From the IMG/VR virus record IMGVR_UViG_3300032401_000033, positions 1-36,111 of that record: 36,111 nucleotides of DNA. The stretch is one strand, 5' to 3'. Positions 687-22,381 of this stretch are shown here, piece after piece; position 1 is the stretch's first letter; each line of letters begins with the position of its first letter. Source of the DNA: a virus. A program made the translations under genes and the position numbers. The notes under the pieces were generated by a model. That model searched no databases, was not told where the DNA came from, and saw nothing but the letters and a program-made list of their open reading frames with translations.

Positions 687-3065
687 CTATGGGCACCGGA
701 TGGTGAAGTCGACCCGAAGCATGTTCGTCGCCGCGAAAGCCGACAAGTTCTGAGGGACGAACCCGACCATCATCCCGTTCGTCACCGCCGCCGGGCCCGC
801 GAAGCTGGTCTGCGCCGTCCCGGTAGAGTTGGCCGCCACGCCGTTCGTGACGGAGGCGTAGGTGTACCAAGCCTGCGTCCGGTGCTGCGACACGAGGTCG
901 ACCGTCCCGGTCATCCCGTGGGACTTCACGAACGCCTCGGTTATCGTGCAGCTCCTCGTCCCGAACGGGTTCGCCATCCAGTAGGCGATTCCGTTCGTCG
1001 GGTCCTGGACCAGCAGCGTGAAGCCCTGGACGTTGTTGGTCAGCACGACGTGGTCGGCCTGGGTCAGGTGGTAGTACTCGCTCGACGTCCCGCCTTGCAG
1101 GCCGCTCAGGGAGTTGTGGTCGCCCGTCCCCGACGCCGAAGGGATGCTCATGTAGGACGAGAACGTGCCGCCCCCGTAGATGGCCAGCCCCGCCGCCGAC
1201 CCCGTCGGCGTCCCGGACTTCAGCCTCCCGACGTACCTCACCGCCCCGGTGACGGCCGGCTCTGAGAAGGCGATTGTCCACATGAAGAGGGTCGGGGTGG
1301 TGGAGTTCACGTTCTGGCTCGGGACCTCCCAGTCGCCCAGCAAATTGGTCGTCCCTTCGTACACGTAGTACATCTCCGGATGCACCGGGATGACGCTGGA
1401 GGAGTTCCCGCCGACCCGGGCCAGGTACATGCTGAACGTGACGGGGGACTTCACCGCCGTGTAGGTGTTGGTCGACATCCCCGCCGCGAGGTAGGTGCTC
1501 GCCGGGACGGGCGAGGGGATGTTGTTCGTGAACGGCGACGCCGGCTGCGCGGCCGACAGCAGCACCGTCCCGTTCGTCGGCTGGAACCACACGTTCGTCA
1601 GGGTCGCGGTGTAGTACCACGCCGCGCCCTGCACGGCGAGCCCGCGGACCCATCCCGCCGTCGCGTACTCGTTCGCGGCCGGAGCCTGCGACGCGGGGTC
1701 AATCGTCGTGTAGATTCTCCCGTCCGCCCCTATGTACCCGAACGAGACGTTGTTCGTGCTCCACTGGAAGATGTTTCCCGTGGCGGTCGGCGTGCGGTTC
1801 AGGACGACCAGCGGCTTGTTCGTGTAGTACCCCGCCTCGCCCGTCACGTACAGCTTGGCCTGCGTCGCATCGGCCGAGCCGAGCGACATGTTCGCCGACG
1901 TCAGAGCCACCGGGCCGGCGCCGGCCAGGCCGGAGAAGTTCGTGACGGACTTCCCGCCCGCGTTCTGGTTGCCGGTCCAGACGACCGAGCCGTCGGCCTT
2001 GAGGTAGGCTGTCCCGGTCGAGTCGGCCACGGGGAGCCCCACGACCGCCTGCCCGTTGGAAATCGTCAGCATCCTGACGCCCGCCATCCAGAGGGAGTTC
2101 GAGCCGATGTACAGGTCGCGGAACGGAAACGCCGCCGAGCCGAGGTCCACCGCGTTGCTCGCCGTCGGCATGAACGCCTGGGTCGCGTAGAAGACGCGGG
2201 CGACGGCGGAGTTGGTGTCGAAGGAGTTGACGCCATACCCGAACACCGCCGAATAGTCGTGGCTGTTGACGTTCTTGGAACCGAAGTTGAAGGCGGCAGT
2301 GGCGGTGTTGGTCTGGTACTCGCCCGCCCCCGTGTCGCCGAAGTTGGCCGACCCGTCGCCGGTGATGTACTGTATCCCGCCATGGACGCTCCCGAAGTTC
2401 AGCGACCCGCGCCCGCCGTTGGTCTGCACGCCCGACTGGGTGACGACCCCGTGGTTCTCCGAGCCGCTGCCGGTGACTATCTGGGAACCGGAGTTGTACA
2501 CCCTGCCGTGGTTCTCCGAGCCGCTGCCGCTGGCGTATTGCAGGCCCGGACTCACGACGACCCCGGAGTTGATTGCCCCGGTCCCTATGTTCGTCCTCGC
2601 CCCGGTGTTGTATCCCAGGTTGAGCCCGGCCGTGACGCCGGTCCAGGTCTCCGTCCCGTCGCTGATGCCTATCCTGGTCCAGTATCCCGCCAACACCACG
2701 TTGGCCGTCGTGTTGCTGCCTCGAGCAGTAACGGTTTGCAGAGTTTGGGTCGAGGAAAATCCGATGTTGTCAATCTGCGTTTGAAGATTACTACGAGCAC
2801 CATTCAGTGACCCAAACTCAGTCGAATCCACAGTGTTTGGAAGAATGTCTCGGGGATCGATCTTCACCGAAGCAGCAAGGATGTTGTCAATCTGCGTTTG
2901 AAGATTACTACGAGCACCATTCAGTGACCCAAACTCAGTCGAATCCACAGTGTTTGGAAGAATGTCTCGGGGATCGATCTTCACCGAAGCAGCAAGGACG
3001 GGGATGGAAGAAAGAAGAGAAAGTAGAACTAGAGCATATCTAAAGTGCATTTTGATTTTCCTCAT
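687..3065 (-). CDS. Large secreted/tail-fibre-like protein, GC-rich mosaic
   Basis: About 792 residues from ATG 3065. An ATG at 3050 with GAGGA upstream is an equally good start. Either gives a basic N terminus followed by YALVLLSLLSSIPVLA, a signal peptide. Residues ~25-102 hold a perfect 39-residue tandem repeat (VKIDPRDILPNT...). Next come Gly/Ser/Asn-rich repeats of about 20 residues (GSGSENHG type), a phage-fibre-like segment (DLGSAAFPFRDLYIG), and near residue 649 DHNSLSGLQGG...EYYHLT, a motif common in tail fibres. Function as a fibre or receptor-binding protein is inferred from these signatures; a signal peptide on a phage fibre is odd. Codons change sharply to GC-rich at about base 2725, so the N terminus resembles the rest of the phage and the remainder looks acquired. 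A terminator and a GTATTAC element precede it, so it may be its own transcription unit. Confidence 0.75.
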   Translation of the reverse strand: MRKIKMHFRYALVLLSLLSSIPVLAASVKIDPRDILPNTVDSTEFGSLNGARSNLQTQIDNILAASVKIDPRDILPNTVDSTEFGSLNGARSNLQTQIDNIGFSSTQTLQTVTARGSNTTANVVLAGYWTRIGISDGTETWTGVTAGLNLGYNTGARTNIGTGAINSGVVVSPGLQYASGSGSENHGRVYNSGSQIVTGSGSENHGVVTQSGVQTNGGRGSLNFGSVHGGIQYITGDGSANFGDTGAGEYQTNTATAAFNFGSKNVNSHDYSAVFGYGVNSFDTNSAVARVFYATQAFMPTASNAVDLGSAAFPFRDLYIGSNSLWMAGVRMLTISNGQAVVGLPVADSTGTAYLKADGSVVWTGNQNAGGKSVTNFSGLAGAGPVALTSANMSLGSADATQAKLYVTGEAGYYTNKPLVVLNRTPTATGNIFQWSTNNVSFGYIGADGRIYTTIDPASQAPAANEYATAGWVRGLAVQGAAWYYTATLTNVWFQPTNGTVLLSAAQPASPFTNNIPSPVPASTYLAAGMSTNTYTAVKSPVTFSMYLARVGGNSSSVIPVHPEMYYVYEGTTNLLGDWEVPSQNVNSTTPTLFMWTIAFSEPAVTGAVRYVGRLKSGTPTGSAAGLAIYGGGTFSSYMSIPSASGTGDHNSLSGLQGGTSSEYYHLTQADHVVLTNNVQGFTLLVQDPTNGIAYWMANPFGTRSCTITEAFVKSHGMTGTVDLVSQHRTQAWYTYASVTNGVAANSTGTAQTSFAGPAAVTNGMMVGFVPQNLSAFAATNMLRVDFTIRCP
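2763..2996. repeat. Perfect 117-bp tandem duplication in fibre gene
   Basis: Bases 2763-2879 and 2880-2996 are identical head-to-tail copies. 117 bp is 39 codons, so the frame is kept and the fibre protein carries the same 39 residues (SVKIDPRDILPNTVDSTEFG...) twice. With no synonymous drift the duplication is very recent, or could be an assembly artefact. Confidence 0.9.
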
Positions 3066-3127
3066 TGATTCCCGTTGTCTTTCACACCTTGTAATACGAA
3101 AACAAACTGCTGCAAAATGCTGGTTAA

Positions 3128-3172
3128 CAGAAAACAAAAGAGCCTTGCCAATGTTACTTGACAAGGCTCTAA
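3128..3172 (-). terminator. Rho-independent terminator
   Basis: A 9-bp perfect stem (AGAGCCTTG at 3139-3147 and CAAGGCTCT at 3162-3170) with a 14-base loop. Read on the minus strand it is followed by TTTGTTTT. It lies 18 bases past the stop of the gene at 3190-3609 and before the fibre gene, so it should end the upstream transcript. Confidence 0.8.
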
Positions 3173-3189
3173 GGGCAAGCAACGAAAGT

Positions 3190-3609
3190 CTAGCTTTCGT
3201 TACTGACTTCACAGTAGGACGCACAGGTGAGCGGGCCGACATTGGGCCACAATCCCGGAATAACCTGGTCTTCCGGAGTGCCCAGTGTAACATCCACGCG
3301 ACCGATACCGCTGGAGAACAGCATCACTCGCACCCAGCGGCCCCTGTGATGAACACTGACGCCAACTTCGCCACCCGGAACGATCGGAGCCGGAAGAATG
3401 TAGCGGTTGACCCATGTGGTACCGTCCACACTGTCCTGAACGATCAGCTCCGTGTTGGCCTGGTTGAGGTGATCGGCCGCCAGATAGAGGTCAATCGCCC
3501 TGTAATTGAACACTGGGTCTTCCGTCGGGTCTTCCTTCTGGAAGAGACACACCCATGAGTTCGGTTTCAGACCTGCGAACAGACTCGCACGACTCATCTT
3601 ACCCTGCAT
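3190..3609 (-). CDS. Hypothetical protein, probable beta-sandwich virion protein
   Basis: 139 residues. Start ATG 3609 has GGAGGA four bases upstream, and a terminator follows the stop. No family recognised. The sequence is beta-rich with alternating hydrophobics (RAIDLYLAADHLNQANTELIVQDS, GRWVRVMLFSSG, RVDVTLG) and no transmembrane segment or charged coiled coil. That pattern fits a small jelly-roll or galactose-binding-like fold of the kind used in virion decoration or fibre accessory proteins, but this is inference. Its leader (3610-3696) is one of the longer gaps in the area and holds a GTATTAC element, so it may be transcribed separately from the portal group. Confidence 0.7.
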   Translation of the reverse strand: MQGKMSRASLFAGLKPNSWVCLFQKEDPTEDPVFNYRAIDLYLAADHLNQANTELIVQDSVDGTTWVNRYILPAPIVPGGEVGVSVHHRGRWVRVMLFSSGIGRVDVTLGTPEDQVIPGLWPNVGPLTCASYCEVSNES

Positions 3610-4263: not shown

Positions 4264-4464
4264 TTATCCAAGAAGCAAGGGCTTTTCACTCTTGCTCTCA
4301 TGAACCTTGGGCTTGTCCACCAACTTGGCAGCACTGCACCCTTCGTGCACACAGATATACAGATCCTTGTCAGGATGCTTACTCTCTCCGGGCACGCGCT
4401 GCCACTTATGCTCATGGACGATCTTTGCACCTGAGCTCGGCAACTCTTCAGTTATCGTCTTCAT
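4264..4464 (-). CDS. Small hypothetical protein with possible zinc site
   Basis: 66 residues from ATG 4464, chosen because GGAGG lies six bases upstream. The start overlaps the end of the portal gene by 17 bases. Histidines (HEHKW) and a C-x4-C pair (YICVHEGC) could form one zinc site. The C terminus is Lys/Ser-rich. No known family. Its position directly after the portal suggests a head or connector accessory role, but nothing in the sequence proves it. Confidence 0.6.
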   Translation of the reverse strand: MKTITEELPSSGAKIVHEHKWQRVPGESKHPDKDLYICVHEGCSAAKLVDKPKVHESKSEKPLLLG

Positions 4465-7444
4465 CTTCGACCTCCACTTCATTGCCTTCTGCCAGAACTT
4501 TCTCGGCAGCCTCAGCTGCCCTCAGTCTTTCATCTTCGGCGCCCTTCAGCTTCGCGATTGTCTCGGTCATGAGGTTCTTGATTCCTTTGATCTCTGCCTT
4601 CTTCGCCTCTGAACGCCACTCTGTAATCATCGAACCGAGTAGGACCCGCTTTCCCGTAGCTTTCTGTTCAGCCTCGTTCAAGAGTTTGACCTCAGGAGTT
4701 TGCTTCTCACCGAACATGTTGTGATTCCAGGCTGAGGAGTACGTGTTAGGCCCTTGCGTGTTAAAGATCTGAGGAAGCCGGCGGATGATAATAAAGAAGT
4801 TCTCTTTGAGTGCACCTTCGAGAGCGGTGCTTTCCCGAATCCTCTTCTCGAAGTCGTTGACTCTCGACTCTTCAAGAGGTGTAACTTTCGATCTGGAGGC
4901 GCTCTGTACGACCACTTTCCCTTTCAAGAGGTCGTTCTTCGACTTTGCACTGGTACGAAGAAGGTGAGTAGGAATGCCGCTACGCTGGAGAAGATAGGCA
5001 TACCACTGATCAGTGTCAATACCTACCGTCTTTCCAATCCTCTGAAGGATGTCAAGGGTTTCAGCCCGAGTCTTTTCCAACTCAAGCCGGTTCTTTTCAT
5101 CCAGCGACGAGACGGGATTCATGTGAATGGTAAACTTGGCACGAGCACTACGAGGATCGATTCCCACCCATGCCAAATTGATCTGACACAAGAGTGCGTA
5201 CCCTTGCATCGTTGACTGCTGAAGACGATTGATCACCCTGGCAAAATTGATGTCCTGATATGCCAACGGAGATTCGGCAATGAAGCCACTCTTGGCATCA
5301 GAGAAGCCCATGTAGTCAGCCGGAATCTTCAGTGCTCCAAGGAACCGCTTGCGGAAGTACTCGACATCGAACACTTGGTTGACCTGCATACTGCCCTGAA
5401 GCCTGTTGACCGTAATGGCTTCGTCGTCAACGATGATGTCCTCGTTTCCCCCAAGGGGCTCCATCTCTGATCGGACATTGCCGGTTTCAGGATTGATCAG
5501 GTGCTTCTTGTTGAGCTCCTGCCTGATCTTCCTCATTGTCCGGCTTCGATCCTCAGCACTCATACCAGACAGGCCTTTGATCTGAAACACAAACCGGTCC
5601 GGAGATCGCCGAAGACGATAGATCAGCAGGGCGTCTTCACTCATGCGCAATCGACGATAGGCATGACGTGCCGCCCACAGGTATGAGGTCCCGTATGCTT
5701 CAACTCGTTCTTTCCCGAGCAGACGCCAGTGGACAAAACTCCAGGGCGGATCTGTAGGCTTTCCTTGAGACAGATCAGCGGGCTGGGCAAGGGTGAGCGC
5801 TGATCCAAGTTGCTCAATCGGGGCCACACAGAAACCAATGAGTCGACCTTCGTCGTCTTCGATTCGACTCAACGCATACACAGGAGCAGCAACGACGTTG
5901 ACGATCTCACCAGGAGTTCCATCCTCGCGTTCTTTCTGAACAACGGCGCCGAACGAGTTGCCATACTTTGCGAGTTCACGAGCGATGGAAAAGACCTGTT
6001 CATCGGCATTCACGCGTTCGAGGAGATCGTTACACAGCTTTTCTACCTCTTCGTCATCGGCTTCAACCCAAATTCGCTTGCCCGTTGTGGGGTCAATTTG
6101 AGTGTTATGTGTAAAAACCCCGGCGGTCAGCGCAAAGTTGTGATACTTATCAACCGTCAAATCATAGGTAGGATGAACTCCAGGAAGAAAAACAACAGAA
6201 AGAACCTTGTGATTTACACACACTTCAATTTGAGCAGCTCTCTTCGCCTCCGAAATATGACGACCGCGTTCTTGAAGCTTTTCGGGTGTATTGGTTGCTC
6301 GAAGTTGTGCAAGGTACTGCTGATATCTTTCGACCGACCATCGGGATTTCTTGCTAATGCCCCGAAGAGAAAGCCCTCCCTTTGAACAGGTGCCACCAAC
6401 AAACGTCATTTTGCGTCGATAGTCCGGATCAGCCCAGCTTTTCTTGCCAACAGAAGACATAGTTTCTCTAAAGTCTTCGTTTCTTTCGGGCGGCCAATTC
6501 TGTCTTGCCTCACTGGCTGCTGCAGCAGCTTGTCTTCCAAGAAGCAACGCAACTTCAGGATGTTCGACATAGAATTTCTTCTTTGCCTCTCGCATTTTCT
6601 GCCGAACATCCTCACGTTTCATTGGGTTCAAATCACCAAGTTTTGAAAGTCTAGCTTTCTGTTTTGCTTCATCTGACCAAACATGACCTGTTGAGTGCAG
6701 TGAAGAATGATCTGCCTTAGACATCCACCGAAGATTGTCTGGGGAATTATCTTTGCTGTTGAAGTTTCTATGATGGACAAGTGTACAACCATAAGGTTTC
6801 GGAGCTGCAAAGTAACGATGAGTATAATGCCACTTTTTCTCGTCGGGCTCAAGAAGCATCTCGTACCCAACACAACCTTCGTCAGAAGTAAACCGATAAA
6901 ACGGCATTAACGAGTCGCCTGGCTGAAGGTGTTGTGCCTCGTGGTAGGTACCATCACGCATCAGGAAAGGGTGGTCAGGTGTACAACGAATCTTTTCATT
7001 GTTGTCAAGCATTACTTCAACTAGTTCGCGTGTACTAGCTAAAGAAACAATTGCTTTTCCTGGTACAATCTTTTTGGATTCCAGATCATACGAGTAGACC
7101 CAGAAGGGCGGATTTCCTACAAGATCCTGAATTGGAACTTCAGTCCCGTTTACCAAAGAAATCTTAACATCTCCAGCGAGACAGCAGTCCTCCGCGTAGA
7201 GGTCAAGAGCAGCTACGACAAGATCATCCGTGTCCATGTCGTCGAACTCTTTGTAAGCCTGTAGACGATCTTGTGTGAGGTGAATCTTCCGACTGTACCA
7301 TGTGGAGATTGGATCTTTACCGTACGCATACAGCGTCGTCGTCAGGTTGGTCAAACCCCTCGGTCGAATCGTAGGAGTACCTTGACCCCCGGGAGAAAAT
7401 CCGAAAAGGACCTTCAGGGCCTTCCCGGGCTGTAACTTGATCAT
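4448..7444 (-). CDS. Portal protein containing an intein
   Basis: 998 residues as translated, 638 after intein removal. ATG 7444 is preceded by GAGG with six-base spacing. The N extein (1-87) ends LDLYAEDC and the C extein resumes TQIDPTTGKRIWVEADDEEV, a join typical of phage portal proteins. Downstream are conserved-looking portal segments (RELAKYGNSF, WSFVHWRLLGKERVEAYGTS, FRKRFLGALKIPADYMGF, FIAESPLAYQDINFARVINR), the helical clip/wing region of T4-gp20-like portals, and an acidic tail (EVEVEDEDD). The protein forms the dodecameric ring at one capsid vertex through which TerL pumps DNA. Residues 88-447 are the intein, annotated separately. Small genes follow with overlapping starts. Portal identity is by family resemblance from memory; I am fairly sure because TerL is encoded a few genes upstream. 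Confidence 0.88.
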   Translation of the reverse strand: MIKLQPGKALKVLFGFSPGGQGTPTIRPRGLTNLTTTLYAYGKDPISTWYSRKIHLTQDRLQAYKEFDDMDTDDLVVAALDLYAEDCCLAGDVKISLVNGTEVPIQDLVGNPPFWVYSYDLESKKIVPGKAIVSLASTRELVEVMLDNNEKIRCTPDHPFLMRDGTYHEAQHLQPGDSLMPFYRFTSDEGCVGYEMLLEPDEKKWHYTHRYFAAPKPYGCTLVHHRNFNSKDNSPDNLRWMSKADHSSLHSTGHVWSDEAKQKARLSKLGDLNPMKREDVRQKMREAKKKFYVEHPEVALLLGRQAAAAASEARQNWPPERNEDFRETMSSVGKKSWADPDYRRKMTFVGGTCSKGGLSLRGISKKSRWSVERYQQYLAQLRATNTPEKLQERGRHISEAKRAAQIEVCVNHKVLSVVFLPGVHPTYDLTVDKYHNFALTAGVFTHNTQIDPTTGKRIWVEADDEEVEKLCNDLLERVNADEQVFSIARELAKYGNSFGAVVQKEREDGTPGEIVNVVAAPVYALSRIEDDEGRLIGFCVAPIEQLGSALTLAQPADLSQGKPTDPPWSFVHWRLLGKERVEAYGTSYLWAARHAYRRLRMSEDALLIYRLRRSPDRFVFQIKGLSGMSAEDRSRTMRKIRQELNKKHLINPETGNVRSEMEPLGGNEDIIVDDEAITVNRLQGSMQVNQVFDVEYFRKRFLGALKIPADYMGFSDAKSGFIAESPLAYQDINFARVINRLQQSTMQGYALLCQINLAWVGIDPRSARAKFTIHMNPVSSLDEKNRLELEKTRAETLDILQRIGKTVGIDTDQWYAYLLQRSGIPTHLLRTSAKSKNDLLKGKVVVQSASRSKVTPLEESRVNDFEKRIRESTALEGALKENFFIIIRRLPQIFNTQGPNTYSSAWNHNMFGEKQTPEVKLLNEAEQKATGKRVLLGSMITEWRSEAKKAEIKGIKNLMTETIAKLKGAEDERLRAAEAAEKVLAEGNEVEVEDEDDN
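6104..7183 (-). other. Intein with HNH homing endonuclease domain
   Basis: 360 residues inside the portal. It begins Cys88 (CLAGDVKISLVNG, block A), continues with block-B-like KIRCTPDHPF, and ends with YDLTVDKYHNFALTAGVFTHN, with the terminal His-Asn followed by Thr448 as the nucleophile of the C extein. The centre holds an HNH-type nuclease signature (LVHHRNFNSKDNSPDNLRW...HSSLH) followed by NUMOD3-like helical repeats rich in Lys/Arg/Ala. All splicing residues (Cys1, block-B Thr/His, penultimate His, Asn, +1 Thr) are present, so splicing and homing both look functional. A neighbouring cysteine (Cys87) precedes the intein. Confidence 0.9.
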
Positions 7445-7496: not shown

Positions 7497-7760
7497 TCAT
7501 TGCACTACTACTGGAAAAGATTTCTGCCGTCCAAAAGTTCTGCGGTTACCTTTTCGCTTGATCCTTGGACGCCACTGCTCACCTTCGCCGTCAACGTAAT
7601 CATGCTCGACTAAGAGATCGATTGCTCGTTCAATCCTTGACTCCATGTCAAAGTTGAACTGCTGTGCCAAGGAATTGATCTCCTTGTGCAGTGCAGGTTT
7701 GTTTGTCAAATCAAGCTTCCGCTTCCACTGACGTCTCAAAAGTTTTCGTAGAGGTTTCAT
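7497..7760 (-). CDS. Small basic hypothetical protein
   Basis: 87 residues from ATG 7760, two bases after the stop of the preceding gene. Very basic N terminus (MKPLRKLLRRQWKRKLDL) and C terminus (RPRIKRKGNRRTFGRQK), with a central helical segment (LHKEINSLAQQFNFDMESRIERAIDLLVEHDYV) that could be a winged-helix. Nucleic-acid binding is a reasonable inference. The IERAIDLLVEHD stretch weakly matches the tag motif shared by many proteins in this window, but here it may simply be part of the fold. Confidence 0.6.
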   Translation of the reverse strand: MKPLRKLLRRQWKRKLDLTNKPALHKEINSLAQQFNFDMESRIERAIDLLVEHDYVDGEGEQWRPRIKRKGNRRTFGRQKSFPVVVQ

Positions 7761-7762
7761 TT

Positions 7763-8704
7763 CTAGTCTAGCATTTTCATTGCACCCAAAATCTTCTCCC
7801 AATCCCAGCCTTTTCTTAGACCCAGCTCGACCATCCGTAGATTTCGTACTTGGGTTCGACTGACAGATCCAACTGTTGCTTCAGGATCATTAGGCTTTCC
7901 TCTCAGTCGAAATCCTTGTCGCCGTTTCAACGCAGCTGTAAAAAATTCAAATGCTTTTTCAAGAATTGCCCCCAAGTCCTTCCGCTCGTCTTCCAAGCTG
8001 GAATCTGTTGCTCCTTTTTCTCGAATTTGATCTACCGCCGCATCATATATTTCCCTGAACTTCAGATCCACCATGTGAATAATTCTGTCTGCGAGAATGC
8101 GAAGATCTTCATCTGACCGCCTTCCAGAAATGATCGCGAGATAACGAGCAATGTTCTGTTCTTGGAATTCCCAAGGTGATAGCAACGCGGCGGCACCCTT
8201 TTTGGCTTTTTCTCGTTCCCTGCTTTTTGCGGCTGCCTGAGGAAGCCTCCTCTCTGCATTGGCTAGATCAAGCTTGTACACAACTGATGCCTGTCCTGCA
8301 ATACGAAACTCTGGGAAAGAAGTTACATCCCCACCCAAGCCGATCCTGGTAGGATATTCTTGCCGGGGTTTTCGTGTTGGAAGAGAGTGTGTGCCCTTGT
8401 AACTCACTGACAGCAAAGTATCTCCCTTCATCCAAAATAGCAACACCGGCTCATTGCTGGCAAAAACTTTCACGGCCTCGAAAGGAGTAAGTATTTCAAA
8501 ATCCCAGTCCTCTAACTCCTGCCAGTTGGTTCGGGGTACCGCAACTTCCCTGTTTAGCATACTTAACGCATTCATTCCTGAAAAAATAGTACCCGTAGTC
8601 TTGTCCCTCCACCCCGCAGCGATCTTCCGCACGATGTTTGACCGAAGAGTCTCAGTCAGCATCAGGTCAATTGCACTCTCGATCTGTTCAGATGTGATTA
8701 CCAT
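7763..8704 (-). CDS. Tag-bearing paralogue of the tandem-domain protein (single-domain copy)
   Basis: 313 residues. N terminus EQIESAIDLMLTETLRSNIVRKI carries the shared motif ending in Leu-Thr-Glu. The rest matches, region by region, the three domains of the adjacent 976-residue protein: WxxLxDxDFEIL(T/A)P(F/E)(E/D)AVK, LLFWM, AxVVYKLD, a Lys/Arg-rich stretch, KKGAAALLSPWEF, NIARYLAIISGR, and IIHMVDLKFREIYD. No enzyme motif is recognised. It starts inside the 3' end of that neighbour (7-base overlap), so the pair arose by tandem duplication. I infer a head-internal protein whose N terminus is trimmed after the LTE; the function of the domain is unknown. Confidence 0.75.
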   Translation of the reverse strand: MVITSEQIESAIDLMLTETLRSNIVRKIAAGWRDKTTGTIFSGMNALSMLNREVAVPRTNWQELEDWDFEILTPFEAVKVFASNEPVLLFWMKGDTLLSVSYKGTHSLPTRKPRQEYPTRIGLGGDVTSFPEFRIAGQASVVYKLDLANAERRLPQAAAKSREREKAKKGAAALLSPWEFQEQNIARYLAIISGRRSDEDLRILADRIIHMVDLKFREIYDAAVDQIREKGATDSSLEDERKDLGAILEKAFEFFTAALKRRQGFRLRGKPNDPEATVGSVSRTQVRNLRMVELGLRKGWDWEKILGAMKMLD

Positions 8705-11628
8705 GAGCTTTTGTACTCTGGATCACGTGCTTTGCGTAAAAAGTCCTTTAATTTTACCAGCTCTTCAGTCCAACTCGTGAAAGAAAAATAACCGGGATCC
8801 TCTTTTGCTCGAGCTTTTCGTCGTTTCCACTCCTCTGGATCTTCCTTCTTAAGTACTTCATCACGAATGTTTTTCTGAACGATTTCGACGTAAGTTTTCC
8901 ACGCGTCTTTCTGAAGTTCAATCATCCCCTCACCTTCTCGGCGAAGTGCTTGCAACTCGGCTTCGGCGGTTGAAGCATCCATCTGATCCAGGCAAGCCAA
9001 ATACCGACGACTAGACAGATGGAGAATCTTCTGAACCAAGAGCTTTACCCCTTCAGGAGTGGTTCGATCCTTAATCATTGACTGATATCGCCCCTGGTTC
9101 GTAGCTTTGACATCCGCGGGGCTCAGCAAAGCCGTGGCACCAGAACGGGCAAGGTCGCGCCTGGCACGCTTCTCGTATGAGGTCTTGGTGCCTCCCGAAA
9201 CCGCTGGCCTTGCGCCGAAAGGAAACTCCCATTTACGAACAAGGGCGAGAGGAAGGACGTAGGCCACGTCACTGTACTGCGCCATAGTCTTGATCTTCTC
9301 TCCGTGTGCGACGCCTATTTCAGGATAACCTACCTCTACTGGCTTCCCCTGCATCGTCACACCAGCAAGGGTGTTTGGAGGAACTGTGATTTTGTGCTTC
9401 CACGAATGCCTGTATCCTCCGCTTTCTTTCTCAAACTCTTTGCCCTTCTCGCAGTACCAGAAGATAAAACCCTTCTTATACTTGTCTTTCAACGCTTCTT
9501 CGGGTTTGAGTACCAGAAAATCTTCGTCGGTGATTTCACTCCACAGAAGCGGATTGAAAAGCTGTTCAGAAGCACGCCTCCCGGCTGGCCCTCGGTACAA
9601 ACGGTGTAGCAGAGAAGGCTCTTTCTTTACTGGACCTTCATGGTTGGCGAATCCCGGCCTGACCGAAACCGATGTTGCCTTCATGAGCTTACGGAGTATC
9701 TCGGATTTCACTGCTTCAAGCAGCACGTGATCAATTGCTTCTTCGATCGGATCATTCATAGTCTGCTTTCCTTCATTTCGATGCCGTCCCTGCAGTTCGT
9801 ACAAAACCTCTTTCATCGTCTGAAGATCATGTGCAAATGAATTAGACAAGCCTGGGTTTTTTCTTGCTTGGTCCATTTTGTTTGCAATTCTCTCAAAAGC
9901 GTCAAAAGCATAATCGAGATTCGTAGAGACAAACATCTTACTTTCTATGTGCGCTGGATCATTCATGATCTCGTCACAAATCTCTCTGTACTTCAAGTTT
10001 GCCAAGTGAATAATCCGGGACATCAGCGCCTTTACTGACTCAGGTGTTGCTCGACCGGCCATGATACTCTGATAACGGGTAAGATTGTATACTAAGAACT
10101 CACCGGGGCCCAGCAAAGCTGCGGCACCAGAACGGGCTTTCTCTCTTTTCTTCTTCAGCTCAAGACGGGTGTTCCTGTACTTTGCTGCAATTTTCTCTGG
10201 ATCGACAACATAGGCCGTGTCAGCCAACTTCGCGGCCAGGCTCGGGTCATCGGCTCCAGCGTTTAACCCCCGAGGTGTTCCTGCCCACCCGAAGTAATGC
10301 CCGCCGAAATCACTAAAAGCTTCATCATCATCTGTGATAGAGATCAATCCGACTGGAACAGTATCAATATCAGAGGAAGGCTTTGTCTTCACCCAGAAGA
10401 CTATAACATCTCTGTAGTTGTTGTGGGCATCCTCTGCGCTCATCTTCAGTACATCGTCATCTGTTAACTGACTCCAGGAAATAAAAGGATCTACTCGAAG
10501 CAAAAGCGCTTTGAAGCTTTGCTTGTATGAAATTGGAGGGTAAATCTTGGCAAGCTCTGCCAAGTGCTTGGACTTGAAAGTTTCAGTGAGCATTCGATCA
10601 ATCATTGTCTCAATAAAAGTGTGCGGGCTCACCCCATAATCCCTTTTGCCTGTGACCTTCAACCAGTACCCTCGCAAACTTCTTAAAAACGAGGAGCTTT
10701 CTCGTTCATAGCTCTGTCTGAAAACTTCTTTTTCTTCTTCATCACCACCCCACTGAGACAACATTCTGGCGTACTGCTCAGCCGAGTCAAGCATATTTGA
10801 GTAAGTCTCCCACGTGTTGCCTATCAGCTTGTCCATTTTAGTGACTTCACTGAAATCAATGTCACCAGGAGATTGCTGCAACATCGTGACCATATTTGTT
10901 GAAGCTGCACGAAGGATCTTTGAAATTAGTTCCTTGATCCGATCTGGTGTATACTTATCCCTCATCAGAGCCCATTTGTGTTCAAAGTACTCAGCTTTCA
11001 CCTTCTTTGGATTCCACAAACTTTCGGCGCCCTTTTGGGCTTTTCTGCGGGCCGCTCTCTGCTGTGTAGTTCGAGGTGGATTTCGCAAAACGTAGGCAAG
11101 GTCGCACATTGAATGCGCTGCCTTTTCAAATACCTTCATTTCAAGCGTGGTATAAGCACGAGTATACCATCCAGGTGAATCGAATCCTTGGCCCACCCAA
11201 GTTCTTCCTTGAGTGATTAGAACCAATGTGTTGGCAGGAATAACTACATACTCTGGTTGTGGTTTGTGGCCTTTCCAGTTTGGATCCCGTCGTCGATCAA
11301 TGTTGTACCAGAAGATAAGCGGTTCTTTTTGTATTGCACTAGAACCTGTGAAAGGAAGATTTCGTTGTCGCGCGTCAGCAAGAATCTTTACGGCATCTTC
11401 CGGGGCCAAGACCTCAAAGTCACTGTCTTTTACAAGGTTCCAATCAATACCTTGCGCACGAAAAGCATCCCACTGTGGAATTGAAACACCATACTCTGTG
11501 GTTGTATGAGCCTCCCTTGCCTTTGCATAGTTGGCTCTCATCAGCTTTTGGAGTATCTTCGACTGGAAGGCTTCGGAAAGCACTCTATCAATCTCACGCT
11601 CGATGAAGTCGTTAATCTTTTGCTTCAT
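8698..11628 (-). CDS. Triple-domain protein, candidate processed internal head polyprotein
   Basis: 976 residues in three homologous units, each opening with the same tag: IEREIDRVLSEAFQSKIL (9-26), IETMIDRMLTETFKSKHL (339-356) and IEEAIDHVLLEAVKSEIL (628-645). After each tag come the shared blocks: DxDFEVLxPEDA, IFWY, PxNTLxxIT, AYVL, KKGA/RSGAxALLxP, RYQSIM, TPExxKxLxxKIL. A fourth copy is the next gene. Each hydrophobic-x-Glu fits the T4-type prohead protease consensus, so cleavage could yield three separate proteins. That is inference; the unit fold is unknown and no catalytic signature is visible. A methionine at 624 (MNDPIEEAID) shows the third unit could once have been a free gene. Its start overlaps the upstream gene by 17 bases. 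Confidence 0.75.
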   Translation of the reverse strand: MKQKINDFIEREIDRVLSEAFQSKILQKLMRANYAKAREAHTTTEYGVSIPQWDAFRAQGIDWNLVKDSDFEVLAPEDAVKILADARQRNLPFTGSSAIQKEPLIFWYNIDRRRDPNWKGHKPQPEYVVIPANTLVLITQGRTWVGQGFDSPGWYTRAYTTLEMKVFEKAAHSMCDLAYVLRNPPRTTQQRAARRKAQKGAESLWNPKKVKAEYFEHKWALMRDKYTPDRIKELISKILRAASTNMVTMLQQSPGDIDFSEVTKMDKLIGNTWETYSNMLDSAEQYARMLSQWGGDEEEKEVFRQSYERESSSFLRSLRGYWLKVTGKRDYGVSPHTFIETMIDRMLTETFKSKHLAELAKIYPPISYKQSFKALLLRVDPFISWSQLTDDDVLKMSAEDAHNNYRDVIVFWVKTKPSSDIDTVPVGLISITDDDEAFSDFGGHYFGWAGTPRGLNAGADDPSLAAKLADTAYVVDPEKIAAKYRNTRLELKKKREKARSGAAALLGPGEFLVYNLTRYQSIMAGRATPESVKALMSRIIHLANLKYREICDEIMNDPAHIESKMFVSTNLDYAFDAFERIANKMDQARKNPGLSNSFAHDLQTMKEVLYELQGRHRNEGKQTMNDPIEEAIDHVLLEAVKSEILRKLMKATSVSVRPGFANHEGPVKKEPSLLHRLYRGPAGRRASEQLFNPLLWSEITDEDFLVLKPEEALKDKYKKGFIFWYCEKGKEFEKESGGYRHSWKHKITVPPNTLAGVTMQGKPVEVGYPEIGVAHGEKIKTMAQYSDVAYVLPLALVRKWEFPFGARPAVSGGTKTSYEKRARRDLARSGATALLSPADVKATNQGRYQSMIKDRTTPEGVKLLVQKILHLSSRRYLACLDQMDASTAEAELQALRREGEGMIELQKDAWKTYVEIVQKNIRDEVLKKEDPEEWKRRKARAKEDPGYFSFTSWTEELVKLKDFLRKARDPEYKSSW

Positions 11629-11953
11629 AACCAGGCCGAGAAATCTTTCGGTACTGTACGTTGATTCGAGAAAGCTGACTGCGAAGAGTCACAATATCTT
11701 CATGATATCGAGCTGAGACTACTTTGGCAAAAAGAAGAAGGGCACTAACAGCTCTCATCAGCGGTTCCTCCAATTCTTGCGTAGAGACAAACTCACCCGA
11801 AGCAATCTTTTCAATCCCAATCGAATAGTGCCTGGCCATTGCGTGCTGTATCTTCTCCATCACCTGTTTGATCTCGATAAAAAGTTCCTCAGCAGTTGCC
11901 CCCTCAGGACTATCTGCCTCAATCACGACGGTGATGGCCTTTTCGATGTCCAC
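11612..11953 (-). CDS. Small tag-bearing hypothetical protein
   Basis: 113 residues with a GTG start at 11953 that shares one base with the TAG of the AAA+ gene (TAGTG). The N terminus MDIEKAITVVIEADSPEG matches the shared motif, ending Val-Ile-Glu-Ala. The body is helical (ELFIEIKQVMEKIQHAMARHYSIG; ALLLFAKVVSARYHEDIVTLRSQL), with no recognised domain. The tight coupling with the AAA+ gene suggests the two products act together or are packaged together; this is inference from position. Confidence 0.65.
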   Translation of the reverse strand: MDIEKAITVVIEADSPEGATAEELFIEIKQVMEKIQHAMARHYSIGIEKIASGEFVSTQELEEPLMRAVSALLLFAKVVSARYHEDIVTLRSQLSRINVQYRKISRPGYEAKD

Positions 11954-12900
11954 TACTTTCTCCGGATGCTCTCGAGGACCTTCTCGTCTCGCCTGGGCAG
12001 ATCAGTGTAATCGGCCGAACGAAGGCGCTCGATCACGTCACCGACATTCTCCTTGAAGGCATACCCGGCAATGATCAGCTCTCGGAGATGGCCGAAGGAG
12101 AAGCCCCTGGTCTTCTCGGCGATCTGTTGAATACGTTCGGGGGTCTCGATTCCGTTGAGCTTGTGCTTCAGATAAATCAGTCGGCCTTCTACAGGCGGGT
12201 AGTCGATCTTGACCTTCTTGTCAAACCGGCCCGGACGGAGAAGCCTAGGCGGGAACTTCTCGATGTAGTTGGTCGTGCCCAAGAACAGGACGTTGTCGAC
12301 AGAATTGTTGCCGTCAAGCAACTGGAGCATGTTCCGCTCCGAGTAACCGATATACTCATCCATATCCTCAAAGACGACAACAACTCTGCGATCCGGTTCG
12401 ACTTCTCGGAAAGCCGGGAGGCCTTCAAGCACCTCACCAAGGGCACGGGCGATGATTATCAGGTCGCCCTGCTTTGTCATGCTTTCAGCAACCTGTTTGA
12501 TCAGGCAGGTCTTGCCCGTTCCTGGGGGACCGTAAAGAAGAAGACCTCTGTTGTGGAGGAACCCAAGCTTGTCGAAGTTACCTTTTAACGTCCAGAAGCG
12601 CTCGATCTCCTCCAAGACTGAGTACATCTTCGACCCCTCAAAGAGGTAAAGGTCATCAGTACGGAACTCTTTCTTGACGAAGTAAAGTGTACCGCCTCTG
12701 TACTCCAAGATGTAGGCGTGAGGGTCAAGTTTCGGGACGAGTTCAATATGGCCGCACGGACGGAAGGCATCAGCTTCCTTTACATACTGAATCAAATGCT
12801 TGACTACATCTGCCTTCTTGTCCTTGCTAATCACAGCAGCAACACCCGGGCATACCATGGCATCAATGGCTTCTTCGATCTTCCGCTCAGTCAGGTTCAT
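11953..12900 (-). CDS. AAA+ ATPase with N-terminal tag
   Basis: 315 residues. Walker A GPPGTGKT (124-131), Walker B VVVVFEDMDE (173-182), sensor-1 GTTN (208-211) and arginine-finger region LLRPGRFDK (220-228) give a complete single AAA+ module of the FtsH/Bcs1/proteasomal-ATPase type. A C-terminal helical lid follows (GFSFGHLRELIIAGYAF). The first 110 residues are not a known domain and open with ERKIEEAIDAMVCPG, the same tag that marks its neighbours, but with Cys-Pro where others have x-Glu. It starts at an ATGA overlap with the upstream gene. It should hydrolyse ATP to remodel a protein; the substrate is unknown. Location next to TerL and tagged proteins suggests a role in head assembly or as an injected protein. 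Confidence 0.88.
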   Translation of the reverse strand: MNLTERKIEEAIDAMVCPGVAAVISKDKKADVVKHLIQYVKEADAFRPCGHIELVPKLDPHAYILEYRGGTLYFVKKEFRTDDLYLFEGSKMYSVLEEIERFWTLKGNFDKLGFLHNRGLLLYGPPGTGKTCLIKQVAESMTKQGDLIIIARALGEVLEGLPAFREVEPDRRVVVVFEDMDEYIGYSERNMLQLLDGNNSVDNVLFLGTTNYIEKFPPRLLRPGRFDKKVKIDYPPVEGRLIYLKHKLNGIETPERIQQIAEKTRGFSFGHLRELIIAGYAFKENVGDVIERLRSADYTDLPRRDEKVLESIRRK

Positions 12901-13262
12901 ATGTCGATCAACCTTTCTATCTCGTCTAGTGCATGTTGTGCATTCAATCTGTGCTTTGCCATTTGTGGAGGCAGTGAGTCCCTGCTTGCAAAGTAGGCGG
13001 CCAATGCTTCGAACAGAGAGGCTTGCTGCTCGGCCATCTCTTTGCTGTAGGCCATAACTCCGGCCAGAGTAAGATCGTCTTCTTCATCTTGCAGGGCCAA
13101 GAGATTCTCACTGATTTTCCTCGATACCATCTGACAATCAGATGAGATTCGCTTCATCAGCGCGTGCCTTTCAGGTGATAAAGAAAACATTGCTGTAAGG
13201 TCCGGTCCTGTCGTCTCTACTAAAGCGCTGATCTTCTGTTCAATCTGTTCGTCAGTTGTCAT
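12897..13262 (-). CDS. Small tag-bearing helical protein
   Basis: 121 residues from ATG 13262, four bases after AGGGG; an in-frame TTG one codon earlier is ignored. N terminus TDEQIEQKISALVETTG matches the shared motif. The remainder is a long helical array (ERHALMKRISSDCQMVSRKISENLLALQ; EQQASLFEALAAYFASRD; LNAQHALDEIERLIDI). No domain recognised. It ends in an ATGA overlap with the AAA+ gene, and a hairpin with a GTATTAC element lies just upstream, so it likely leads the operon that runs through the AAA+ and tandem-domain genes. Confidence 0.65.
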   Translation of the reverse strand: MTTDEQIEQKISALVETTGPDLTAMFSLSPERHALMKRISSDCQMVSRKISENLLALQDEEDDLTLAGVMAYSKEMAEQQASLFEALAAYFASRDSLPPQMAKHRLNAQHALDEIERLIDI

Positions 13263-13281
13263 CAAACCCCTAGACCTACAC

Positions 13282-13307: not shown

Positions 13308-15170
13308 CTAGGGCTTGGGTCGGAATTCTTCTTGACGATGGGATTCGTTGACGGACATCACAATCGGGCCATCATCAACGCGAGGGAGAACGACTTTGTC
13401 CTTCTTGACCGTACCTACTCTCGCCCGGGAAGAGGAGATGTTGTAACAGCGGCTCACAGCCCCTGCCAAGGCATCTAGTATGTCATCAAAGGAGCCGGGC
13501 TTGTGGTTAGGCCTGCCACCTTCAGGATTTTTCCTAAGGCCGTCAACTTCCTCAAGCAGAGGTGCATACTCATACATGTTGATTCTCCGCTCGGTAAAAC
13601 AGGTTTTCAAATGCGTGTAGTGGATGAGATCAATACTAAGGAGCTCGGCCTCAAACCCGGCTTGTAGAAGAAGCTGAATGGGCATCCGTGACTGATACTG
13701 GTCAAAGGTTACTTTCTTGATTCTAAACCGGTAGGTGTTTCGAAGTTGATTCACGAAAGCAATGATCTCCGCGAAAGGAATCTGTCCTTTTACAGGAGGG
13801 CTGATTCGAAGCATGAAGTCAACGTAGACACCAAACTTCGCATCTCTCATGATGTATGGATGACCCATCGCAATCCCGACGTTCTCCTCCGAGTAAGCCA
13901 AGTCAATATGGAGATGACGGGGCGCTTCTGGATGGACCAATGGGCACCAAACCGAACGCTCAATCTTACACAACTTCCGTTCTTGAAAGAAATCATCAAT
14001 CCGAGTGTCTGATCCAAGCGCCAGAGTGAGCACCGGTCGACTGAATGGATGAGTACGGTCGTTTTCGATGCAGTTCAAGATCTTCTGCTTTACCGGGAAG
14101 AACGCTGTCGACCCCGCGGTACTGATTCCCGCAATGTCTCTCAGGGCCAGGTCAGCGTCTGTAAAGAACTGCTCTCTGTACTCAACCGGTACACTAACTA
14201 TTTCCGATCCTTCCGGAGGAATTTCCTCAAACTCAAGTACTCTCGATGCATAGTGCTCTGTTCCGATTACAACATCAAAGTGCTCGCCACTGAAGTCATC
14301 CGGATTCTTTATCTCCCACAACGCAAACTGGATGATTCGAACGGTCTGTTGCAGATCAGGATCAACTGCAACTTTCTCGATCAACTCATCCAGCATTGAA
14401 CTCTGAAACTTTCTTGAAGAGAGCAGCATTGTCAATCCAGGCAATCGACCGCGTCGGAGAAAGCGAGATACCTGCCTACTACGCGCTTCATTGAACAACT
14501 GGTGTGCTCGTGTCTTCTCAGTCTGAGCATCGGGATTCTGTACCTTCTTATGGAAGTTTGCTTCGTCCAGGATAAACCCAAGCACATTGTCTCCAAGTGC
14601 ATGGGACGCTAGACTGCCTGAGGCCACCTCAAGTCGCTTCTCCGGAAAGTAGAGAGGATAATGTGGCCGTGGCCGGATTGCGCATTTCTCTTGAAAGTAC
14701 GGAGAGTCATTTACATACTGCTCGACGAGTACTGATACGTCATCTGCTTTGTCCAAGGTGATGTTGTAGACGCCGAAGATGATCTTGCTCTTTGGTAGCA
14801 GGCCGAAGAAGTGAGATGGATCACGAAGGCAGGACAACTCGTAGAGTTTTCTCGTAAGGCAGATCGCCGCAAAGGTGGTCTTGCCTATCCCGATGGCACC
14901 CGTGATGATGATAGTACCGATTGTGCTGTCGGGATCAAAGACGATCTCAAGTTCTTGCTTCCAAGCCTCAGACAAGTTCTTGACGTTCTTGCCCAAAAAG
15001 TAATCATCTTCAACAAACTGACGAGGGGGGACGATTTCGCGCTCGTAGTCAACTGCTCGAAGACTCTCGATGACACTCGTGTCACCTGTTTTCTGGATGG
15101 TCGCTAGGATTTTCTCCAGCGCCCGCCGCGTCTTCGGCTTCAACCGTGTGAGTTCCTCCGCCAGATTCAT
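13308..15170 (-). CDS. terL: Terminase large subunit
   Basis: 620 residues from ATG 15170, chosen over an in-frame GTG four codons upstream because GGAG lies six bases before it. The N-terminal ATPase half has Walker A GAIGIGKTT (about 91-99) and Walker B LGFILDEAN (about 197-205). The C-terminal RNase H-like nuclease has the expected acidic residues in HLHIDLAYS (about 423), VTFDQYQS (about 490) and SFDDILDALAG (about 562-566). The enzyme cuts concatemeric DNA and translocates it through the portal, which is encoded several genes downstream. The 5' end overlaps the zinc-finger gene by 89 bases. Length is normal for the family. Confidence 0.92.
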   Translation of the reverse strand: MNLAEELTRLKPKTRRALEKILATIQKTGDTSVIESLRAVDYEREIVPPRQFVEDDYFLGKNVKNLSEAWKQELEIVFDPDSTIGTIIITGAIGIGKTTFAAICLTRKLYELSCLRDPSHFFGLLPKSKIIFGVYNITLDKADDVSVLVEQYVNDSPYFQEKCAIRPRPHYPLYFPEKRLEVASGSLASHALGDNVLGFILDEANFHKKVQNPDAQTEKTRAHQLFNEARSRQVSRFLRRGRLPGLTMLLSSRKFQSSMLDELIEKVAVDPDLQQTVRIIQFALWEIKNPDDFSGEHFDVVIGTEHYASRVLEFEEIPPEGSEIVSVPVEYREQFFTDADLALRDIAGISTAGSTAFFPVKQKILNCIENDRTHPFSRPVLTLALGSDTRIDDFFQERKLCKIERSVWCPLVHPEAPRHLHIDLAYSEENVGIAMGHPYIMRDAKFGVYVDFMLRISPPVKGQIPFAEIIAFVNQLRNTYRFRIKKVTFDQYQSRMPIQLLLQAGFEAELLSIDLIHYTHLKTCFTERRINMYEYAPLLEEVDGLRKNPEGGRPNHKPGSFDDILDALAGAVSRCYNISSSRARVGTVKKDKVVLPRVDDGPIVMSVNESHRQEEFRPKP

Positions 15171-15858
15171 CTTCTTCTCCACGGATCAGGTGTGTAAGAA
15201 CCCGTCGCATGCCTTCTCTTTCAGCCGGATCGTCTGGCAAGACTACTTCGGTAAGCTCGAGTTTTCGAACTCCTCCGGTCCTCTTACTCCCGAGTTTTGC
15301 CGAACCAAATGCAAGTACGAGCTTGTCAATCACATCCTTCAAGTTCACTTCGCCGAGCTGGGACAGCTCTTTGAGGAAGTTAAGTTCACGTGCTTGCATC
15401 CCCGAGATGCTTTCCATGAGCATCAACGCCCCTCCCGGACTGATACGACCTTTCCAATTCGCATCCTTCATCTTGTCCTTGAACAAGATTTGTAGGTTTT
15501 TCATCTCATCATCCAACTCGAGAGCCCGTTGGATCTTTCCAATGGCGATCACGCGCAGGATCAACTGAACCTTGGCATCCTCTCTCTTGAGAAACTCCAC
15601 AACATCATCTGGCAGATGCTGATCAAAGTTTGAGGCTTTGTCGATAAAGTCTGCCACGGCTACGAGCATGTCACTCACCTTTTCCTTGCCCTGCAAAACA
15701 GTGAGTAACTTCATCGGTGTCTTGGCTTTGAGCTCGGGATGATGATGGTTGATATGGCGAGACAGAAGAGAGGCTACCTTCGCACGGTAGTCGCAGAACG
15801 GACACTTGTGGGGCCGTTCAACTTCTTCAGGAGTTGGTGCCTTCTGTTCTTCGGCCAT
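15082..15858 (-). CDS. C2H2 zinc-finger protein, candidate small terminase or packaging factor
   Basis: 258 residues. ATG 15858 shares a base with the TGA of the nuclease gene (TGATG). Residues 17-40 form a classical C2H2 finger, HKCPFCDYRAKVASLLSRHINHHH (Cys19, Cys22, His35, His39). The middle is helical (VSDMLVAVADFIDK; DDVVEFLKREDAKVQLILRVIAIGKIQRALEL) and the C terminus is acidic and Gly-rich (RGEEDESGGGTHTVEAEDAAGAG). The position directly before TerL with a long overlap is where a small terminase is expected. A C2H2 finger is unusual there, so the packaging role is an inference from context; a transcription regulator is the main alternative. Confidence 0.7.
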   Translation of the reverse strand: MAEEQKAPTPEEVERPHKCPFCDYRAKVASLLSRHINHHHPELKAKTPMKLLTVLQGKEKVSDMLVAVADFIDKASNFDQHLPDDVVEFLKREDAKVQLILRVIAIGKIQRALELDDEMKNLQILFKDKMKDANWKGRISPGGALMLMESISGMQARELNFLKELSQLGEVNLKDVIDKLVLAFGSAKLGSKRTGGVRKLELTEVVLPDDPAEREGMRRVLTHLIRGEEDESGGGTHTVEAEDAAGAGENPSDHPENR

Positions 15859-20505: not shown

Positions 20506-22353
20506 TTACATATACCAACCAACGCGGGGGCCTTCAACGTGAATGATCTTCCAACCAGGCTTATAATCTCTTTCGAGCTCAACAGCGGCGAGTTTCTTCG
20601 CATGAATTTCATCTTCAGCGTCAACGTCAACTTCCTCTTTCATACCGTTGGGCCACTGAGCAAGTACGGTATAGCGATCAAGCCTCTTCTCGCCCACCAA
20701 CCTGTCGATCACTGACTCTTCAGGCACCGGCTTGACAGGTTTTTGAGCTGGTGCAACTTTCTCTTTCGCCACTGCTGTGATCGGATTGCCTATAAGATCG
20801 ACTTTCATGCCCCCTGGAAGGCCTTTCGTTGACGTAATCTTGTTCCTTCGAGCAATGAAATCCTCACCAACCTTCTGTGGGCATCCCACCAGATTGGTCA
20901 GCTGATTGTTAGACACATCAAAGTCGCGGGCAACTTCTTCAGGTCCGCCTTCAAGCGTAGTAAGATGATTGTGAACGGCTACCATGTACCCAACCTTCCC
21001 GGGGCATCCCTTGAGTGACTGAAGAGAGTTGAAACCCACATCAATTTCTCCTGGAACTACTGCGGGCATACCTTCGAGAGACACAAGTTGATTCATAGAC
21101 GCGAAGACGCCCCCAACCTTCTGTGGGCATCCCTGCATCGTCGTCAGCTCGTTGTTGTAGATACTAAACAGCCCACCAACTTCGAGCGGGGCCCCTTCTA
21201 AGGACTTCAACCTGTTGTGACAGACAGTAAACATCTTCAGGCATTTCTCAGGCCCACCTTTGAGAGAAAAAAGGTGACAACCAGATGCGTCAAACGATGA
21301 AACCACTCGTGGCATGCCCTCAAGGTCGGTAATTGACGTCTGCCTCACGGTGTACGATCCACCAACTTCGACAGGACCGCCCTTGAGCGTCTTTAGCTGT
21401 CGACAACCATCTAACTCAAATCTACCGCCGACCTTCTGTGGTGCCCCCTCAAGCGAGGTAAACTCGTTGTCGCCAAGCAGACAATCTCCAGTGATCTCCC
21501 TCGGACAGCCAACCAGTGACTTTAGATGGGTGGATGAGAAATTACATAAGCCATCAACTTTGCCGAACTTGATCGGTATTTTGCTCAGCTCCAAGCCGCG
21601 GAAGTTTACTTCTCCTTTGACGTCAATTGATCCATCAGGATTCTTATTCCAATTAGTGCCGAACTTGTTGGTCAACCACTCCTCATCAAAGGTCATTCGA
21701 TTATGAATGAGATTGACCGGAACACCTTCACCTTTTAGGAACCGCTGGGCCTCCGCCTGATTCATTGATCGGTCAGTTGAGTCATAGGCATGCAGTTCCT
21801 TCGGCAGAGTACCGCCATGGGGCAGGGCATAGATCGCCACTTTGTTGTACTTGTCTCTGTCAGGATAGTGCTTGGAAAGAAAATAGTAGAAGACAGTGCC
21901 TTGACTACGATAACTATCCCAGTGAGATTTTGTAGATTCCGAAGCTACACACCAACGAGACCCTTTGCCGTACTTCTTGGAAGCTTCCCAGGTGTGGGGA
22001 GAAACGACCAGAACTTTGTCGTTCTCGAAGACCTTTGTGGCGTCCTTCTCGGTCTTCTTCACGACATCCACTTGGGCAATCTTTGCCTCCTGAGCGTCTA
22101 CGAACTCCTTGAACTCACTCCAGAGGCCTTTGCCCCACTTCAAGATGTCGTTCTCCTCACCGCGGAGGACCTGACGTTGCTTGAGAGTCTTGAACTTATC
22201 AATGTACATTTCGACATCATCAGCAGTAGGCTTCTGCTCACCTTCTTGATACTTAGCTGCAAGCCACTTCTGTGTCACCTCATCCCAGATACTCTCAGAA
22301 AGCCTTTGTCTAGGTCGAAGGATAGACTTGATGCTCTCTCGGATATCAGACAT
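20506..22353 (-). CDS. Leucine-rich-repeat protein with N-terminal WC-motif domain
   Basis: 615 residues, ATG 22353. The N terminus RESIKSILRPRQRLSE is similar to the shared tag. Residues ~115-200 contain KYGKGSRWCVASESTKSHWDSYRSQGTVFYYFL, a module known from many phage proteins but without assigned function. From ~245 to ~540 are about twelve repeats of 20-23 residues with the pattern L-x-SLEG-x-P-x-x-VGG-x-F-x-x-x-x-N-x-L, a leucine-rich repeat solenoid. A second tag-like motif, EESVIDRLVGEKR, precedes a ~60-residue C-terminal domain. LRRs bind proteins; the partner is unknown. A close paralogue is encoded immediately upstream. A GTATTAC element lies 19 bases before the start. Confidence 0.8.
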   Translation of the reverse strand: MSDIRESIKSILRPRQRLSESIWDEVTQKWLAAKYQEGEQKPTADDVEMYIDKFKTLKQRQVLRGEENDILKWGKGLWSEFKEFVDAQEAKIAQVDVVKKTEKDATKVFENDKVLVVSPHTWEASKKYGKGSRWCVASESTKSHWDSYRSQGTVFYYFLSKHYPDRDKYNKVAIYALPHGGTLPKELHAYDSTDRSMNQAEAQRFLKGEGVPVNLIHNRMTFDEEWLTNKFGTNWNKNPDGSIDVKGEVNFRGLELSKIPIKFGKVDGLCNFSSTHLKSLVGCPREITGDCLLGDNEFTSLEGAPQKVGGRFELDGCRQLKTLKGGPVEVGGSYTVRQTSITDLEGMPRVVSSFDASGCHLFSLKGGPEKCLKMFTVCHNRLKSLEGAPLEVGGLFSIYNNELTTMQGCPQKVGGVFASMNQLVSLEGMPAVVPGEIDVGFNSLQSLKGCPGKVGYMVAVHNHLTTLEGGPEEVARDFDVSNNQLTNLVGCPQKVGEDFIARRNKITSTKGLPGGMKVDLIGNPITAVAKEKVAPAQKPVKPVPEESVIDRLVGEKRLDRYTVLAQWPNGMKEEVDVDAEDEIHAKKLAAVELERDYKPGWKIIHVEGPRVGWYM

Positions 22354-22372
22354 AGTAGTTGCCTCTCATGGT

Positions 22373-22379
22373 GTAATAC
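22373..22379 (-). promoter_or_regulatory. GTATTAC element before LRR gene
   Basis: Minus-strand GTATTACACCA begins 26 bases before ATG 22353, with 19 bases between the 7-mer and the start. The element at 24493-24499 has the same spacing and the same following bases (ACxxA). No -35 box is visible. Confidence 0.35.
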
Positions 22380-22381
22380 AA

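Follow-up and report, generated by a model that had tools for sequence, protein, structure and literature searches.

A recurrent short tag links three homologous units in a candidate head-cargo polyprotein encoded on a viral contig

Why should a virus, here a T4-related tailed phage, string three copies of one domain in a single chain, each behind the same kind of short tag? The question is raised by an open reading frame (ORF) of 976 residues at positions 8698-11628 of IMG/VR record IMGVR_UViG_3300032401_000033 (36,111 nucleotides analysed in full, hereafter the window; the window features named below all lie on the minus strand). Translation, pairwise comparison and a second contig identify it as a chain of three homologous units, each with a tag and a putative cargo domain. 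The reading that we favour, at a probability of about 0.57, is that the ORF encodes a tag-linked head-cargo polyprotein that would be cut in the prohead; we infer that the chain is targeted to the head, cleaved and injected. The more general feature, as far as sequence can tell, is a reusable tag with the consensus IEEAIDxxLxE, or a close variant, that is found at the start, in the middle or at the end of many unrelated proteins of the window.

The frame of the ORF is open throughout its 976 codons and divides by pairwise comparison into unit 1 (residues 1-333; 10630-11628), unit 2 (residues 334-623; 9760-10629) and unit 3 (residues 624-976 and the stop codon; 8698-9759). Adjoining it is a separate gene of 313 residues (7763-8704), a fourth copy of the unit, whose start overlaps the stop of the 976-residue ORF by 7 bases (ATGGTAA). 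All six pairs among the four copies are homologous (BLASTP E-values from 1.5e-8 to 6e-19; Smith-Waterman z-scores of 16-29 against 1,000 shuffles), and their pairwise identity is low, at 20-31%. Three tandem units with a fourth copy as the next gene had been claimed in a preliminary description of this DNA, and both points are borne out. An identical, intact 976-residue ORF is present in a second contig, IMGVR_UViG_3300037011_000700, so that the fused frame is supported by both assemblies and an assembly error as the origin of the fusion is ruled out. The shared 18.9 kb are 99.95% identical (10 substitutions); because none of the substitutions falls in the ORF, the comparison is uninformative on selection.

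By sequence comparison, the unit is an apparent orphan domain known in four copies. It matched no family in Pfam, PHROGs, NCBIfam or PADLOC, and no relatives of it were found in GenBank phages or plasmids. Among viral contigs we found no unit-bearing relative beyond the near-identical second contig, and thus none that encodes the units as separate genes; the fourth copy alone is separate. Searching the PDB by profile brought up weak matches alone, designed proteins among them, with E-values no better than 0.077, and a unit profile gave chance matches only against the proteins of the retrieved relatives described below. One candidate from a profile search over all loci, L131 (E 0.03), was discarded, since its alignment is broken, takes in one third of the profile and lies in a protein that in our reading resembles a glycosyltransferase.

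Conservation among the four copies is highest in the tag, where 7 of 15 columns are invariant; elsewhere this holds for 15 of 220 gap-free columns (Fisher test, 9e-5). The tag reads IEREIDRVLSE in unit 1 (residues 9-19; 11572-11604), IETMIDRMLTE in unit 2 (residues 339-349; 10582-10614), IEEAIDHVLLE in unit 3 (residues 628-638; 9715-9747) and IESAIDLMLTE in the fourth copy (residues 8-18; 8651-8683), and its LxE is invariant across all four. The preliminary description had each unit begin with a tag and pointed to residues 19, 349 and 638, and these are precisely the positions of the LxE Glu in the chain's three tags.

Three contigs are related to the window by their portal: G002 (43 kb), G003 (135 kb) and G004 (33 kb), with best-segment identities of 45-57%. 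The tag is shared with one of them. A matrix of nine columns, which excludes the LxE positions past column 9, was used with a site threshold of 11 bits. Trained on G003 tags alone, it found 9 sites of at least 11 bits in the window, compared with 0.18 in shuffles, and recovered all three tags of the 976-residue ORF; in the reverse test, the window-trained matrix found 12 sites in G003, compared with 1.8 in shuffles. No site was found in G004, and G002 gave 2-4 scattered low-scoring sites (0.3-0.5 in shuffles); there is no clear enrichment in either. A DNA scan of viral contigs for DPIE[EQ]AID returned 11 stretches, and the matches outside the two tagged lineages are isolated and mostly within unrelated proteins.

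Among 34 listed tags, 13 are N-terminal, on unrelated proteins, 14 are internal, two of which (at 7497 and 23152) are possibly N-terminal with a later start, and 7 are C-terminal. Two G003 proteins, of 355 and 297 residues, have two internal tags each, without a methionine just upstream of them. A third, of 433 residues, has a GNAT acetyltransferase domain (residues 100-149), a tag at residue 183 and a ParB-like stretch (residues 266-319). The internal tags of G003 separate modules. The emphasis of the preliminary description on a novel triplicated domain holds as far as the units go; as the main point it is too narrow, because the tag is reused on many unrelated proteins and the modules in the multi-tag chains of G003 are not copies of one another.

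A block of tagged genes in the window is found between the genes for the large terminase (13308-15182), the upstream border, and the portal (4448-7444), the downstream border, which is of the T4 gp20 type and contains an intein (splicing domain and HNH). From terminase to portal, the interval encodes six proteins, all tagged: one of 122 residues with an N-terminal tag (IEQKISALVETT; 12897-13265), an AAA ATPase of 315 residues (11953-12900) whose N-terminal tag IEEAIDAMVCP is without LxE, one of 113 residues (MDIEKAITVVIEAD; 11612-11953) with an unrelated cargo and a tag that scores 13.7 bits with the G003-trained matrix, the 976-residue chain with its three tags, the fourth copy, and one of 101 residues (7497-7802) with the tag IERAIDLLVEH at residue 57, which would become N-terminal if translation began at the in-frame ATG of residue 53. 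The corresponding interval of G003 has five genes, again all tagged, for proteins of 219, 355 (two tags), 113, 301 (AAA ATPase) and 233 residues. Terminase (67% identical), portal (58%), AAA ATPase (65%) and three upstream genes are orthologous between the window and G003 (46-69%). No relation was detectable among the remaining interval genes of the two contigs, which leaves the AAA ATPase as the sole homologue between terminase and portal. Since the flanks are orthologous and the interval genes are unrelated yet tagged, the cargo has been exchanged and the tag retained. The tagged gene set is absent from G002, in which the terminase adjoins the portal, and from G004, in which a short gap separates them.

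A protease that could cut at the tags is encoded in two of the relatives. In both G003 and G002, a protease of the T4 gp21 type (PF03420) scores above the curated cut-off (4.4e-17 and 1.5e-11, respectively). It is joined to a tail that is long, charged and scaffold-like, and its gene directly precedes that of the capsid protein; in G003 the protease is part of a 720-residue ORF at 65238-67400. The His and Ser motifs of T4 gp21 (GELNHP and GVSSRG) are found as GELEHP and G[IV]SSRG. In T4, 65 residues of gp23 and 10 of gp24 are removed (PMC9958956). These cuts follow FLTE (gp23) and LLRE (gp24), and the aligned positions in the capsid proteins of G003 and G002 read NGLDE/STR and NRLNE/STR, with the slash at the position of the cut; the site to be expected is therefore LxE before a small residue. 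The four units together have 1,289 residues, and in these [LI]xE[ASTG] is found inside the tags only, as LSE/AF (residue 19), LTE/TF (349), LLE/AV (638) and, in the fourth copy, LTE/TL (18); the unit 3 tag also contains IEE/AI at 630. Outside the tags there is none, while shuffles lead us to expect 3.85 anywhere in the units and give zero in 2% of trials. Among the 34 listed tags, 27 have [LIMV]xE at the corresponding place, compared with 10% of random windows. The proposal in the preliminary description of an internal polyprotein cut at LxE fits the gp21-type protease, the LxE/ST capsid site of the relatives, the confinement of in-unit LxE[ASTG] to the tags and the presence of the tag on most neighbours.

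Under the favoured reading, each unit would be a cargo domain behind a short helical tag that acts in the manner of the capsid-targeting signal on the internal proteins of T4. The three tags would dock the 976-residue chain in the prohead core, and a gp21-type prohead protease would cut the LxE sites of the tags as the head matures. Cuts after residues 19, 349 and 638 would yield cargo proteins of about 330, 289 and 338 residues, equal in number, the first two of which would retain the tag of the following unit at their C-terminus. The released cargo proteins would then be injected together with the DNA.

Several observations weigh against this proposal. The window is a fragment without protease or capsid genes, and both were taken from relatives. 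Taken over all tagged proteins, LxE[ASTG] shows no significant depletion outside the tags (4 in 2,532 compared with 26 in 8,421 residues, p = 0.28). The figure of 27 in 34 tags with [LIMV]xE is somewhat generous because the list was made partly by eye, and the matrix result is the stronger of the two. LxE is missing from some tags, including that of the AAA ATPase and several C-terminal ones. In phage SPN3US, the known cuts, that of the protease itself aside, remove N-terminal propeptides only (PMC10052503). Finally, internal initiation is possible because start codons just precede units 2 and 3.

Three other explanations were considered. The tag might be only a docking helix that attaches to a head protein, such as scaffold or portal, and stays uncut, so that the 976-residue protein would enter the head whole with three anchors. 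C-terminal tags and tags without LxE (those of the AAA ATPase and at 22382, 24530 and 30868) cannot all be cut-off signals, 42 head proteins of SPN3US are uncleaved (PMC10052503), and DarB of phage P1 is packaged through an N-terminal signal (PMC9024508). We still consider docking alone unlikely, given that LxE is invariant in four units of 20-31% identity and that LxE[ASTG] is absent elsewhere in them.

Less probable again is that three overlapping genes were fused recently, with units 2 and 3 also made from internal starts and no polyprotein function. The candidate starts, GTG at codon 333 and ATG at codon 624, lie 4-6 codons upstream of the tag (four in unit 3), and the Shine-Dalgarno-like sequences at these starts (-5.1 and -5.7 kcal/mol) are stronger than that at the ORF's own start (-3.3). 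The 7-base overlap of the fourth copy with the stop is in keeping with such an origin, and T4 gene 21 has an annotated internal start. However, GTG 333 ranks only 11th and ATG 624 8th among 57 in-frame candidates, and fused starts do not explain internal tags in general because those of the 355- and 297-residue proteins of G003 have no preceding methionine. Least probable to us is that the tag, instead of being a head signal, is what the tagged AAA ATPase recognizes; the ATPase would then act on tagged proteins by gathering, remodelling or unfolding them. The ATPase is the one homologous gene of both tagged intervals, and it was not found in the untagged relatives G002 and G004; this absence is weak evidence, both being fragments, and LxE would be left without an evident role. 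Recognition by the ATPase and a head signal are compatible and could both be true.

If the chain is a tag-linked polyprotein, its closest parallels are among proteins that phages carry in their heads. In T4, the capsid-targeting sequence directs internal proteins into the prohead core, with residues 4 and 7 of importance for targeting and residues 8 and 10 for processing (PMC9026906). The T-even internal proteins are divergent counter-defence proteins that have mainly this sequence in common (PMC3012670); by analogy, our guess is that the cargo described here might have an early counter-defence role. IPII and IPIII of T4 share the start MKTYQEFIAEA. As in T4 IPI-IPIII, a short shared tag on divergent cargo ends near a hydrophobic-x-E site, and a gp20-type portal (window) and a gp21-type protease (G003 and G002) are present. 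The tag sequence of the T4 proteins differs from IEEAIDxxLxE, and they have one N-terminal tag per separate gene, whereas here the tag is also inter-unit linker and C-terminal tail, with three copies in the 976-residue ORF and internal and C-terminal tags in both tagged phages. The ejection paralogues of giant phages (phiKZ gp93/94/95/162/163 and SPN3US gp53/gp54) are likewise paralogous proteins; these are head proteins whose propeptides are cut by a gp21-like protease (PMC5694885). They are encoded by separate genes and have AxE and SxE motifs, and the unit has no sequence match to them through Pfam or PHROGs.

Polyvalent proteins of phages and conjugative elements are multidomain polypeptides thought to be packaged, injected and processed, and their release has been put down to metallopeptidase domains within the chain (Iyer et al. 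2017; PMC5512222). They share GNAT and ParB-like domains with the 433-residue G003 protein. The G003 protein has the two or more distinct effector domains that define the polyvalent class, whereas the 976-residue ORF has three copies of one domain. No match to a peptidase domain was found in Pfam, PHROGs or NCBIfam for the ORF or its units; instead of an embedded enzyme, we propose repeated protease sites at the joints. In P1 DarB, a short N-terminal peptide suffices to bring a reporter into the head (PMC9024508), a single N-terminal signal in contrast to the tag repeated between units here. Open-access papers searched for phage polyproteins with a prohead protease or internal virion proteins yielded no account of this layout, subscription journals being mostly outside our coverage.

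Tags are also found beyond the terminase-portal interval. A protein of 195 residues (23582-24169) has tags at both ends (IRTIVDQLITEA... and ...DPIEEAIDEMLEAD), and two leucine-rich-repeat-like proteins (20506-23152) contain a tag-like sequence, which is terminal in 22382-23152 and in its G003 homologue and is followed by a short extra module in 20506-22353. The proteins at 20506-23152 and at 72102-73343 of G003 contain a KYGxGTxWC domain (PHROG 28193, function unknown), leucine-rich-like repeats, or both.

The bordering genes have features of their own. Portal inteins vary: that of G002 is in about the same place as in the window, that of G004 is elsewhere and G003 has none; the start of the L060 terminase fragment also looks intein-borne. 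The terminase of the window is nearest (about 30%) to those of Maribacter, Vibrio, Rhodobacter and Thermus phiLo phages, while the portal is T4-like. In phiLo, the gene after that of the terminase is for a prohead core protease. Bacterial genomes scanned with the terminase yielded no relative. Elsewhere in the window, a tail-fibre-like ORF (687-3293) contains a 119-base tandem duplication (2763-2998) that is present in both contigs, and the contig end (2-679) encodes extended stretches of threonine together with a IPDANMVSDTAWIPAEQSSGTG segment that is repeated.

Taken more broadly, the tag may be part of a modular head-loading code, an idea that we hold tentatively and at somewhat less than even odds. 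One tag would be targeting signal, processing site and linker at once, cargo genes could be strung together and swapped, the protease would yield equal amounts of the injected proteins, and the tagged AAA ATPase may aid loading. T4 and its giant relatives load their head proteins with one gene and one signal each; here the signal recurs within a chain and passes from one unrelated cargo to another in a constant location, the terminase-portal interval. Confirmation of cleavage would establish a polyprotein strategy that relies on the capsid-maturation protease and not on an in-chain peptidase. If true, a tag search would be a simple way to spot injected proteins in uncultured phages, and the arrangement would offer a design for packaging several proteins in a fixed ratio.

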